Of a DNA stretch of 64,000 bases, positions 2,925-50,455 are shown piece after piece; within the stretch, counting starts at the first letter, position 1; each line of letters starts with the position of its first letter. Made by a program: the position numbers and the translations under genes. Below the pieces are notes generated by a model. It was not told the origin of the DNA. It made no database searches and saw only the letters and a list, made by a program, of their open reading frames with translations. This DNA is from Flavipsychrobacter stenotrophus (lineage in GTDB: Bacteria > Bacteroidota > Bacteroidia > Chitinophagales > Chitinophagaceae), in assembly GCF_002954265.1 (NCBI RefSeq), contig NZ_PPSL01000004.1, positions 124,001 through 188,000 on the forward strand. Reading direction: 5' to 3'.

Positions 2925-3037
2925 TAGATAGTCGACAGGGAAACCTGTAGATGGTATAAGTAAACTAACAAACAAATAATACGATGTGGATAGGCTAGTT
3001 AGTTAGCAAATTATCGCATCAGTTAATAAAAGTAAAA

Positions 3038-16916: not shown

Positions 16917-17070
16917 TTTGAAGTTTTTTTTAGTTTGAAATTAAAACGGTAGAGCCTCAGGTGTAATACCCTTAATGAAGCTATTAAATTAAGTGCCTTG
17001 AAATTATAAGACTGCACAAAGCACGCCTTACCCACCGCAGAATGCAGTGATATAGAGGGAGAAAAAAATA

Positions 17071-46343: not shown

Positions 46344-48458
46344 ATGAAATCACGCACACTCTGTACCTCATTATTATTAACCGTTATGGCAGCAAATGCT
46401 CAGCAGAAAACAATAAAATACCCGGATACTAAAAAGGGTACTCAAACCGATGTCTATTTTGGTACATCGGTTAGCGACCCTTATCGTTGGTTGGAAGATG
46501 ACCGGGCAGAAGATACCAAAGCATGGGTGATAGAGCAGAATAAGGTAACCAACAGCTATCTTAGTCAGATTCCCTTCAGAGATGCAATTAAGAAACGCCT
46601 TACTGAGCTATGGAATTATGAAAAGTATACCGCTCCTTTTAAAGAGGGTGCATATACCTATTTCTATAAAAACAATGGCCTTCAAAACCAGTATGTGCTG
46701 TATCGCCAGAAGGGCAATGGCACTCCAGAAGTATTCCTCGATCCTAATAAATTCTCTGACGATGGCACCGCGTCTTTGCAGGGCATTGAATTTACTAAAG
46801 ATGGTTCTTTCGCCGCCTGCCAGATGTCCGAAGGCGGTTCGGACTGGAGAAAAGTATTCGTAATGGATACAAAGACCATGAAGATTGTCGATGATACGCT
46901 TCGTGACGTAAAGTTCAGCGGATTATCTTGGTTGGGTAATGATGGTTTTTATTACAGCAGCTATGACAAGCCTAAGGGTAGCGAATTATCTGCCAAAACA
47001 GAAATGCATAAGCTTTACTACCACAAGCTGGGTACACCACAAAGTAGCGATAAGCTGATATTCGGAGGCGAAAGTATGGTGCGCCGCTACATTGGTGCAG
47101 GTGTTACAGAGGACCAGAAATTTTTGATCATATCTGCCTCTAATGCTACCTATGGCAATGAGCTATACATACAGAGTCTTGCAACACCAAATGCACCAAT
47201 AAAGGCAATAGTTACAGGCTTTGATTATGAGCAGAGCGTAGCTTACAATGAAGGCAATACGCTGTTCATTGAGACCAACCAGGGAGCTCCAAACCACAGG
47301 CTGGTAAAGGTCGATGCCGGGGATCCAACGCCATCAAAGTGGGTAGATGTCATTAAGGAAACAAAGTTCCCATTGAGCGTAAGTACATGCGGTGGCAAAT
47401 TCTTCGCTCACTATCTCAAAGATGCTGTTTCAGAAGTGATTCAGTATGACACTAAGGGTAATAAGGAGCATGTTATCAAATTGCCGGGACTCGGCACTGC
47501 AAGCGGATTTGGCGGTAAGATAGATGAGCACGAGACTTACTATACTTACACATCTTACATCTATCCTTCTACTATCTTTAAGTATGATATCACTAAGGGT
47601 ACTTCTACTGTTTACAAACAGTCCAACGTAAAATTCGATCCTACTAAGTATGAGAGCAAGCAGGTATTTTACACTTCCAAAGACGGTACAAAAGTGCCTA
47701 TGATCATGACCTGGAAAAAGGGCATGAAACAGAATGGTAAGAACCCGACAATGCTTTATGGTTATGGCGGTTTCAACATCAGCCTGAGCCCTTCTTTTAG
47801 CGTAAGTAACCTCGCATTCCTTGAGAACGGTGGTATCTACTGTGTGGCCAATCTGCGTGGCGGTGGCGAGTATGGCGATGTATGGCACATTGCAGGCACC
47901 AAGATGAGTAAGCAGAATGTATTCAATGACTTCATCGCTGCCGGTGAATACCTCATCAAAGAGAAATACACATCGTCAGACTACCTGGCTATTTCCGGTG
48001 GTTCCAATGGTGGTCTCTTGGTAGGTGCATCACTTACCCAGCGCCCCGATCTGTTTAAAGTTTGCTTCCCTGCGGTTGGTGTGTTAGATATGCTTCGTTA
48101 CAATAAATTTACTGCGGGTGCAGGTTGGGCTTATGACTACGGTACTGCCGAAGACAGTAAGGAAATGTTCGACTACCTGCTTAAGTATTCCCCTGTTCAC
48201 AATGCGAAGGCCGGAACTTGTTATCCCGCTACTATGGTGCTTACCGGAGATCATGATGACAGGGTAGTGCCGGCACACTCATTCAAGTTTGGATCAGCAC
48301 TACAGGCTGCACAGAGTTGCGATAAACCTGTATTGATCCGCATAGAAACCAAAGCCGGCCATGGTGCGGGTAAGCCTACAGACATGGTCATTGCCGAGCA
48401 AGCCGACAAATGGGCATTTATGCTTTGGAATATGGGATTGACTTATAAGATGCCATAA
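46344..48458 (+). CDS. Prolyl oligopeptidase (S9 family), secreted
   Basis: 704 residues with a signal peptide (1-19, ending MAANAQ). The N-terminal beta-propeller is followed by the alpha/beta hydrolase domain with the catalytic Ser in SGGSNGGLL, Asp in GDHDDRVVPAHS and His in KAGHGAGK. Prolyl oligopeptidases cleave short peptides after proline; the start of the mature sequence (DPYRWLEDD) is the S9A hallmark. Periplasmic peptide degradation is likely. It ends at a bidirectional terminator shared with the next gene. Confidence 0.95.
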   Translation: MKSRTLCTSLLLTVMAANAQQKTIKYPDTKKGTQTDVYFGTSVSDPYRWLEDDRAEDTKAWVIEQNKVTNSYLSQIPFRDAIKKRLTELWNYEKYTAPFKEGAYTYFYKNNGLQNQYVLYRQKGNGTPEVFLDPNKFSDDGTASLQGIEFTKDGSFAACQMSEGGSDWRKVFVMDTKTMKIVDDTLRDVKFSGLSWLGNDGFYYSSYDKPKGSELSAKTEMHKLYYHKLGTPQSSDKLIFGGESMVRRYIGAGVTEDQKFLIISASNATYGNELYIQSLATPNAPIKAIVTGFDYEQSVAYNEGNTLFIETNQGAPNHRLVKVDAGDPTPSKWVDVIKETKFPLSVSTCGGKFFAHYLKDAVSEVIQYDTKGNKEHVIKLPGLGTASGFGGKIDEHETYYTYTSYIYPSTIFKYDITKGTSTVYKQSNVKFDPTKYESKQVFYTSKDGTKVPMIMTWKKGMKQNGKNPTMLYGYGGFNISLSPSFSVSNLAFLENGGIYCVANLRGGGEYGDVWHIAGTKMSKQNVFNDFIAAGEYLIKEKYTSSDYLAISGGSNGGLLVGASLTQRPDLFKVCFPAVGVLDMLRYNKFTAGAGWAYDYGTAEDSKEMFDYLLKYSPVHNAKAGTCYPATMVLTGDHDDRVVPAHSFKFGSALQAAQSCDKPVLIRIETKAGHGAGKPTDMVIAEQADKWAFMLWNMGLTYKMP

Positions 48459-48475
48459 TTTCAGTCGATACTTAT

Positions 48476-48516
48476 AAAATAGCAAACGGGTGGCATTGCC
48501 ACCCGTTTGCTATTTT
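48476..48516. terminator. 19-bp perfect bidirectional terminator
   Basis: AAAATAGCAAACGGGTGGC pairs fully with GCCACCCGTTTGCTATTTT around ATT. It lies between convergent genes and overlaps the stop codon of the - strand gene by two bases. Confidence 0.92.
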
Positions 48517-50272
48517 ACTTTTTCTTCCCAAATATCTTCCTCAAAAACCCTTTCTTCTTTTCCGGTGTTTCTGCCTTTACTGCTCCCTTTACATTCTCAA
48601 CCAGTTCGGGGCTGCGAAGAGCTGTATTCTTGGCACCCATAAATACATTCTTCCAGATAAGGCTGAAAAAGCCTTTATAGGGATCCCTTTTAATAGAAGT
48701 CGTTATCTGCCTTACTTCTTTACCCGGCATAGGGTTTGATGGATACAGTGCCAGCGTATTGGCAAGGAATGATAACGCACCCTTTCCTTTTTTATCGGTT
48801 TTATTATCCTCATTCATTTTCAGAAAGGTGATGTTCAGGTCATTATACAGCATCGTGAACTTCCCCTTCCCATAATCCTCGTTTCCTTCCACGTGCATAT
48901 CCAGTTTATTCAAGTGGAAACTGCTTACTTCTGTAAGCGCCAGCGCCTTTGCCGGTTGATTCACATCTGCCGCGTCTACGTTTATAGCAGTGCCATCAAC
49001 AGTGAAATAACCTTTTTTATCAGATAGTAGCAGCATGAAGGTGGCAGCAATATCGCCATGATCCATGTATTTCCCTTTTAGCTTTATAAAGCATTTGTCA
49101 TTTTTAGCTACAAGGGTATCAATGTTGGTTATGTTGTTCATGGTGCCACTTACCTGCTCAAACCTTATCACGCCTTCTTTATGAGTCGTCGCACTCATTT
49201 CGGTATACTTAAAGTGGCCATTGGTCAGTTGCATGGTCCGTATATCCAGGGGAAGTCCAATTTTGGTCAGCAGCTGGTGAGGATAGTTGCCGACTTTACT
49301 TTTGGTATTAGGAGCATATAGCCTGCTGAAGTAAATCTCCAGCGACGGGTCAGCTATTTGCATGGTGTCGGCATGCAATGCCCCCCCCCCGTTGAGCAGC
49401 GCCTTCCAGTTAAGTCCTGCTATTTTTATGGAAGGGAAGAACAAGTCATATATATCCTTCTGTTGCCCTGCTTGCTTGTAGAAATTCTCCTTACTTCCAG
49501 TTATATGTATAAATACCTTTCTTAGGTCAATGCTCTTTCCTGCAGTTGAAAATGCCAGTCCCGCTGCACCTATGCCATACGGGCTGCCCCTCTTTACATA
49601 ATTAAAACTGTCCAGTGCTATTTCTGCATTGCGGGCAAAAAAGAAAGTACTTGTATCCAGGCCCTTACCAGGTTCCAGTTTCCAGTCAGACAACAGTATT
49701 TTTCCTCCTTTTATCCAAAGGGAATAGTCGCTGGTGTCACTGACATAATGGTAGGTAACTGTTGGGTTCAGGACATCTATCTTACCCGCCGAGATCAATT
49801 CGATTGATGCCTTTTTTGTGCTTGTATCTTTTCCCTTCAGGCTGTCCAGTGGTTTTGGTGAGCCATCTATCAATATCGTGGGCGAGTTTATAATTATATA
49901 CTTACAATCAAATGAACTGTTAGATGCAAGATTCTCCCATTCTATTCCTGCAATATGTATTTCAGTGATGGCTACAGATAATAGTTTTGCAGGGAGTCTG
50001 TTGTTTTGCTTCAAAAAGTCACGTCTTGACGAATCGGGTGCAAAGCGCACATTCTTTAACGTAACCGTTCTGGTCAATACGTTTATACTAATGTCCTCTA
50101 GTGATACATTGTATAAGCTATCTGTATTTTTTGTAACAATGGATGGTAATTGCTGCCTGATGATATTCTTATAATGGTAAGACACCCAAAACGAAAATAT
50201 GCCTATCGCTGCAAGCAATATGCCTGTTATCCATAGGCCTATATGTAGGCTTTTTCGTTTATTTTTTAACAT
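48515..50272 (-). CDS. AsmA-like membrane-anchored protein with a G10 tract in its gene
   Basis: 585 residues from ATG 50272 (MLKNKRKSLH...; a second ATG at 50308 adds 12). One N-terminal membrane helix (about 9-30), then a long beta-rich region of AsmA/TamB type (SLEDISINVLTRTVTLKNVRF and NHKWALLN-like strands) and a very basic C-terminus (KKKGFLRKIFGKKK). Periplasmic face of the inner membrane is inferred. A run of ten G on the coding strand (49381-49390) encodes GlyGlyGly; slippage there would shift the frame. No obvious partner gene. Confidence 0.82.
   Translation of the reverse strand: MLKNKRKSLHIGLWITGILLAAIGIFSFWVSYHYKNIIRQQLPSIVTKNTDSLYNVSLEDISINVLTRTVTLKNVRFAPDSSRRDFLKQNNRLPAKLLSVAITEIHIAGIEWENLASNSSFDCKYIIINSPTILIDGSPKPLDSLKGKDTSTKKASIELISAGKIDVLNPTVTYHYVSDTSDYSLWIKGGKILLSDWKLEPGKGLDTSTFFFARNAEIALDSFNYVKRGSPYGIGAAGLAFSTAGKSIDLRKVFIHITGSKENFYKQAGQQKDIYDLFFPSIKIAGLNWKALLNGGGALHADTMQIADPSLEIYFSRLYAPNTKSKVGNYPHQLLTKIGLPLDIRTMQLTNGHFKYTEMSATTHKEGVIRFEQVSGTMNNITNIDTLVAKNDKCFIKLKGKYMDHGDIAATFMLLLSDKKGYFTVDGTAINVDAADVNQPAKALALTEVSSFHLNKLDMHVEGNEDYGKGKFTMLYNDLNITFLKMNEDNKTDKKGKGALSFLANTLALYPSNPMPGKEVRQITTSIKRDPYKGFFSLIWKNVFMGAKNTALRSPELVENVKGAVKAETPEKKKGFLRKIFGKKK
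49381..49390 (-). repeat. Poly-G(10) homopolymer inside a coding sequence
   Basis: Ten C on the + strand (G10 on the coding strand) in the AsmA-like gene, about residue 295 of 585. The reading is AAC GGG GGG GGG GCA. The present length is in frame; gain or loss of one base would truncate the protein. Confidence 0.9.
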
Positions 50273-50455
50273 TGCTAACTGCTTTAAAATTTCATGCCAA
50301 CAGGACATTGTTCAATGATGCCGGTAAATGACAACATATTCTTTGCACTACTGACTGATCTGGATAATAGTGTTTTCGTCATTTTAACAACCTTTAACTA
50401 TAGTTCGGTCAATTACAGTTCCTAAAACAATAGCTTTGTTTCAGAAAAATCATAA

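Follow-up and report, generated by a model that had tools for sequence, protein, structure and literature searches.

An in-frame run of ten G, private to its lineage, in a probable envelope gene of Flavipsychrobacter stenotrophus, and three secreted-protein genes of the same genome broken at G/C runs

The run of ten G (G10) on the coding strand of a 585-codon gene of Flavipsychrobacter stenotrophus (Chitinophagaceae, Bacteroidota; a genome of 5.43 Mb in 21 contigs) is best explained as an incidental, slip-prone homopolymer that is kept in frame by ordinary purifying selection, and not as a selected ON/OFF switch; we give this reading a probability of about 0.6. It is favoured because the run is absent from every homologous locus compared, because long G/C runs are depleted in open reading frames (ORFs) and stand in frame in housekeeping-type genes of the genus, because about one coding run of such length is expected per genome by chance, and because the mismatch-repair genes MutS1 and MutL are present. 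It is weakened by three secreted-protein genes whose reading frames are lost at G/C runs, as would be seen in contingency genes sampled in their OFF state, by the plausibility of an envelope gene as a target of switching, and by runs of 14 and 20 that suggest growth of G runs in this lineage. For phase variation in this genome, the three secreted-protein genes (L057, L060 and L064 in Table 1) are a better lead than the G10 gene.

The G10 was noticed in the window, the whole stretch of 64,000 nucleotides that was analysed. The initial annotation had placed ten G, in frame, at about residue 295 of 585, had called them the longest C/G run of the window and had held that a one-base change would remove the C-terminal half of the protein; sequence and translation bear out all of this. 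The run occupies nucleotides 883-892 of the gene, read AAC GGG GGG GGG GCA, and on the forward strand it is the sole C run of at least six in the window, which contains one G run of exactly six and none longer. The gene is open for all of its codons (597 if an alternative ATG start at 50308 is used), and in the alternative frames a stop is reached 8 and 9 codons past the run. A G/C run of at least 7-8 within a reading frame, as in genes classed as phase variable by homopolymer (SSR), is thus present here, as is, by translation only, a full-length product toggled by a single base; among the homologous loci compared, of which the nearest that covers the site is only 51% identical, the tract is not kept at varying length. 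Mechanistically, the run would lie in a turn made of glycines, in an envelope protein with remote similarity to DUF748/AsmA-like proteins whose gene, in its present, in-frame state, would be ON. It is expected to be a hot spot of slippage, a one-base slip truncating the protein after ~305 residues and a three-base change making the turn longer or shorter by one residue, while selection for switching would be lacking.

Table 1. Coordinates of the G10, its gene and surroundings (positions in the window) and of genes with long G runs or C runs elsewhere; G000 is the genome under study.
Feature	Coordinates	Strand	Remarks
G10 homopolymer (C10 on the forward strand)	49381..49390	-	codons 295-298, N-GGG-A, in frame
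585-codon gene, probable envelope protein	48515..50272	-	N-terminal hydrophobic segment read from sequence; remote DUF748 similarity
C-terminal half lost upon a one-base change of the G10	48515..49380	-	from alignment and translation
Perfect 21-bp inverted repeat with T-rich tail	48475..48517	.	between convergent genes
Convergent 704-codon gene beside the 3' end of the G10 gene	46344-48458
L057, T9SS-tailed secreted gene of ~5,340 codons	L192:3805-19825 = G000 C14:1131804-1147824	-	broken once, at G10
L060, PKD/Ig-repeat T9SS protein	L060:3242-8357; G000 C15:485971-485978	+	broken at C8
L064, NHL-repeat T9SS protein	L064:2924-5092; G000 C21:349922-349931	-	frames differ across G10
L116, GTPase with GTP-bdg_N/MMR_HSR1 architecture (genome G005)	3001-3010		in-frame G10

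Of 294 genomes of the family, 143 contain a match to the protein encoded by the G10 gene. This protein resembles DUF748 proteins (PF05359), which we take to be grouped with AsmA-like proteins, in its N-terminal hydrophobic segment and in a weak similarity confined to its first 90 residues, and differs from them in scoring only 23.2 bits against a Pfam cut-off of 50; among 30 aligned members of the family, seven match DUF748 at an E-value of at most 0.01 (best 4.6e-9). The name given in the initial annotation, AsmA-like envelope protein, is therefore a fair but unproven reading of the sequence, borne by a remote similarity and set back by a sub-threshold match. Neither Pfam nor NCBIfam gave a model covering the family (NCBIfam gave one stray match over the 30 members), a profile search of solved structures returned chance matches only (E 0.47 and worse), and an AlphaFold2 model built from two sequences was unusable (mean pLDDT 31). 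Of the five columns that are invariant in the 30-row alignment, three (P331, N383 and Y476) fall in the C-terminal half that a one-base slip would remove. Loss of this half should spare downstream genes, since the 3' end of the gene faces a convergent gene across the inverted repeat, a likely terminator.

The initial annotation had suggested looking for the tract in related genomes, and there it is not found. At the site of the G10, all 39 homologous loci (one genome per species, the genome's own paralogue L014 included and five weak, distant matches, L016-L020, left out) are covered by sequence, and none has a G/C run of at least eight; elsewhere in the gene, one of the 39 has a run of seven and three have a run of six. 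The closest relative (G010, same genus) is 94% identical over residues 1-249 on a contig of 5,776 bases (C228) that ends 133 bases before the site, and when the remainder of the gene was searched for in the DNA of G010, no more than the last 77 bases of this contig matched. The nearest homologue that covers the site is a protein of G006, only 51% identical, which reads N-G-R-Q-L where this genome reads N-G-G-G-A-L. The run is thus private to this lineage and probably young. GGG is the rarest of the four glycine codons in the 41 ORFs of the window (100 of 1,180), and the simplest history of the run would be drift to GGG codons followed by a gain in length of three bases.

This raises the question as to whether the run serves the turn itself, three-base changes varying its glycines by whole residues in a gene that is never switched. 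The protein is one residue longer in the turn than 28 of 29 aligned homologues (the remaining one, L005, shares the extra residue without the glycines), and homologues differ from one another by one or two residues in the length of the turn, as such a register-keeping process would leave it. The confinement of the run to one lineage speaks against tuning of this kind, as does the fact that one-base slips are a commoner event than three-base ones, and we consider it quite unlikely.

The length of the run is in itself less striking than it appears. The genome holds 16 G/C runs of at least eight, seven of which reach ten (lengths 10, 10, 10, 10, 11, 14 and 20). Markov models trained on the window, with the G10 included, predict about 2.6 G or C runs of at least ten per 5.43 Mb at first order and 0.29 at second order, or, scaled by hand, ~0.03 or less per 64 kb; for G8 words, 8 of 100 dinucleotide shuffles, which retain the GG steps of the G10 itself, reach the count of the window. 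In a null drawn from codon usage, the proteins of the 40 window ORFs other than the G10 gene were kept fixed and their synonymous codons drawn anew at the observed frequencies; with a coding share of 88% assumed for the genome, 0.97 coding G/C runs of at least ten are expected per genome (an earlier, noisy sampling estimate that included the G10 gene gave 0.34) and three are seen, in the G10 gene, L057 and L064. For in-gene runs of at least eight, 18.1 are expected and eight are seen; if a dubious ORF at L063 is counted, four runs of at least ten and nine of at least eight lie in genes. That some gene of this genome should contain a run of ten is therefore unsurprising by itself, the idea that a coding run of this length exceeds chance is weakened, and there is little excess of long G/C runs within genes.

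Long G/C runs are, on the contrary, depleted in ORFs. Of the runs of at least nine, mechanical ORFs of at least 120 codons contain four of nine in the genome under study, against a background share of 0.81 (one-sided p 0.016), and 22 of 40 in ten congeners, against a share of 0.87 (p 9e-7). Runs as such are widespread: a G10 is present in 50 of 117 genomes of the family and a G9 in all 11 genomes of the genus. The runs of 14 and 20 exceed both Markov models by far, which suggests that they lengthened through slippage; the G20 might instead be an assembly artefact. This G20 (G000 C13:333873-333892; L055:5001-5020) is the longest G/C run of the genome and has no ORFs of 100 codons around it. The G14 (G000 C20:5967-5980; L063:5967-5980) lies ~110 bases past the gene of a T9SS-tailed M43 peptidase, in the dubious ORF, which has 120 codons. 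A third tract, T9 followed by G11 (G000 C13:17452-17462; L054:4992-5011), is found ~250 bases upstream of an acyltransferase-3 gene (PF01757) and is possibly a promoter-region tract.

Runs of nine or ten G are also carried in frame by housekeeping-type genes of congeners. Besides L116, a GTPase of the kind that binds the ribosome (50S subunit), presumably of the HflX type, they include genes for a dehydrogenase E1 component (L117), an amidohydrolase (L110) and a nucleotidyltransferase (L113), so that an in-frame run of such length is no sign of a switch by itself in this genus. In L116 the G10 directly precedes the residues GSRGPGETE and is read as incidental in a housekeeping-type gene. Five further congener genes with T9SS-type or repeat-protein features likewise keep the run in frame (L104, L106, L107, L126 and L130), the proteins of L104, L106 and L126 being T9SS-tailed. 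None of the 40 congener runs of at least nine (11 of which were read by eye) sits at a frame break under a rule that asks for two different frames, one on either side of the run, each open for at least 60 codons; this rule can miss breaks near an N-terminus and left L064 unflagged.

The genome under study presents a different picture. Its eight in-gene G/C runs of at least eight lie in the G10 gene and in L053, L056, L057, L058, L060, L062 and L064 (the C8 of L056, whose frame ends 29 codons past the run, was counted as in frame from its own sequence), and three of the eight, in L057, L060 and L064, sit precisely at a break of an otherwise open reading frame, the far part of each gene carrying a T9SS sorting domain. 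All three runs that lie in T9SS-tailed proteins are thus broken, while congener runs occur in housekeeping-type genes also and runs are depleted in ORFs. The run of L063 was flagged as a shift as well, between frames of 68 and 95 codons, and was left out of this count as both are short; its inclusion would make the figure 4/9.

In L057, ~606 codons lead from the start up to a G10 on the coding strand (C14:1145995-1146004) and 4,735 codons follow in another frame, with no further stop and no G/C run of at least six besides the break point. Its orthologue in the sister genome (L140), 80-85% identical at the DNA level where the two could be aligned (in two parts), has one open frame of 3,038 codons that runs through the site, where it has mixed glycine codons and no run, and reaches the end of its contig. 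That the frame of this ~16-kb gene is lost only at the run argues against old decay; a slip that is recent or reversible would leave such a break, as would a sequencing error in the homopolymer, and L057 is a strong candidate for a contingency gene in its OFF phase. The sister orthologue has an in-frame G9 of its own (L130:3001-3009, G010) at another pair of glycines, where the genome under study has an interrupted G run; long runs thus arise at different glycine sites within one gene. In L064, the signal peptide and a body of 695 codons with NHL repeats and the T9SS tail are in different frames, which meet at the G10; the case was found by reading the signal peptide, the upstream frame being too short for the frame-break rule, and in the sister orthologue (L143, 89% identical DNA) both parts form one open frame of 730 codons, with no run there. 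In L060, for which there is no clear orthologue, the break is deduced from its own internal repeats: a PKD/Ig-type repeat found in a frame of 590 codons recurs in a second frame of 1,118 codons, with the T9SS tail at the end.

Runs of A or T served as a control. The 218,786 bases examined contain 29 in-gene A/T runs of at least seven (each counted once; 32 if counted per strand), and no gene is broken at any of these, although only three of them reach eight and none nine, so that the control is not matched in length. Frame changes flagged in the window at 16924 (T8) and 60527 (A7) turned out, when read, to mark ordinary gene boundaries; of the candidates in the wider control, position 6293 of L062 reads as a gene boundary, position 8648 of L060 concerns two short frames judged to be non-genes, and the third is a gene boundary already flagged in the window. 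These counts bear on the proposal that homopolymer length is simply wrong in the assembly or the reads, at the G10 and possibly at the three broken genes too. Since all three breaks fall at long G/C runs and the A/T runs are shorter, such errors could account for them; ten bases, however, keep the G10 gene open over 585 codons, and no A/T run of at least seven in the examined stretches breaks a gene, which makes an error of this kind very improbable.

A further reading is selected phase variation, in which slipped-strand mispairing at the G10 would flip the gene between full length (ON) and ~305 residues, as one of a small poly-G contingency set together with the three T9SS-tailed proteins now OFF. 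The length and place of the G10, the coincidence of three of eight in-gene runs with frame breaks, all in T9SS-tailed genes, the intact A/T runs, the long open frame past the break of L057 at its only G/C run of at least six, and the sister orthologues of L057 and L064 that are open through the site all point this way. Against it stand the privacy of the G10, the depletion of runs in ORFs, the unbroken congener runs (by a rule blind near the N-terminus), the five T9SS-type or repeat genes and the housekeeping-type genes of congeners that hold their runs in frame, and the presence of MutS1 and MutL, which should restrain slippage. On balance, a selected switch at the G10 is unlikely. The suggestion of the initial annotation that the gene is phase variable thus agrees with the length, position and consequence of the run and is weakened by its absence from the homologous loci; as a general idea for this genome it gains from the three other genes broken at G/C runs and loses from the in-frame runs of nine or ten G in housekeeping-type genes of the genus.

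A broader version, likewise unlikely, is that in this genome with its MutS and MutL genes poly-G stretches in glycine-rich turns act as contingency switches, so that the surface make-up would be random between cells: three large T9SS surface proteins (the ~5,340-residue protein, the PKD/Ig-repeat protein and the NHL-repeat protein) would be OFF in the sequenced line and the AsmA-like protein ON. Finally, RNA polymerase might slip, or the ribosome shift frame, on the G run, so that one DNA length would yield a mix of full-length and truncated products. Homopolymers can be slippery for RNA polymerase, according to a passage of PMC3711429; the runs named in that passage are of A or T, the G10 gene is in frame and no homologue keeps the run, and we regard this as highly improbable.

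If the G10 were to vary in length, an envelope protein of possible lipid-transport type would come under random control; if it is incidental, as we favour, it calls for caution, since housekeeping-type genes of this genus carry runs of nine or ten G as well. More widely, homopolymer phase variation in Bacteroidota, where switching is better known from DNA inversion, could be tested directly on the three genes of secreted proteins whose frames are lost at G/C runs and nowhere else; among the literature matches listed, none dealt with homopolymer switching in Chitinophagaceae. Known systems from other bacteria serve for comparison. In the PhasomeIt set, as described in PMC6321876, candidate phase-variable genes are flagged from at least seven G/C, ORFs contain 77% of the poly-G/C tracts of Campylobacter, and variation between homologues is seen in most core-phasome tracts. 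The G10 gene is like these Campylobacter genes in that a coding-strand G run of 9-10 lies inside an ORF which a one-base change truncates, and unlike them in that runs are here depleted in ORFs and the G10 is private. In Helicobacter canadensis, according to PMC2823697, all 29 homopolymer tracts vary in reads; as in the present genome, G tracts of about ten or more lie in genes, some of which are frame-shifted at the tract, whereas the variation there was seen in reads and the tracts described here are known from assembled sequence.
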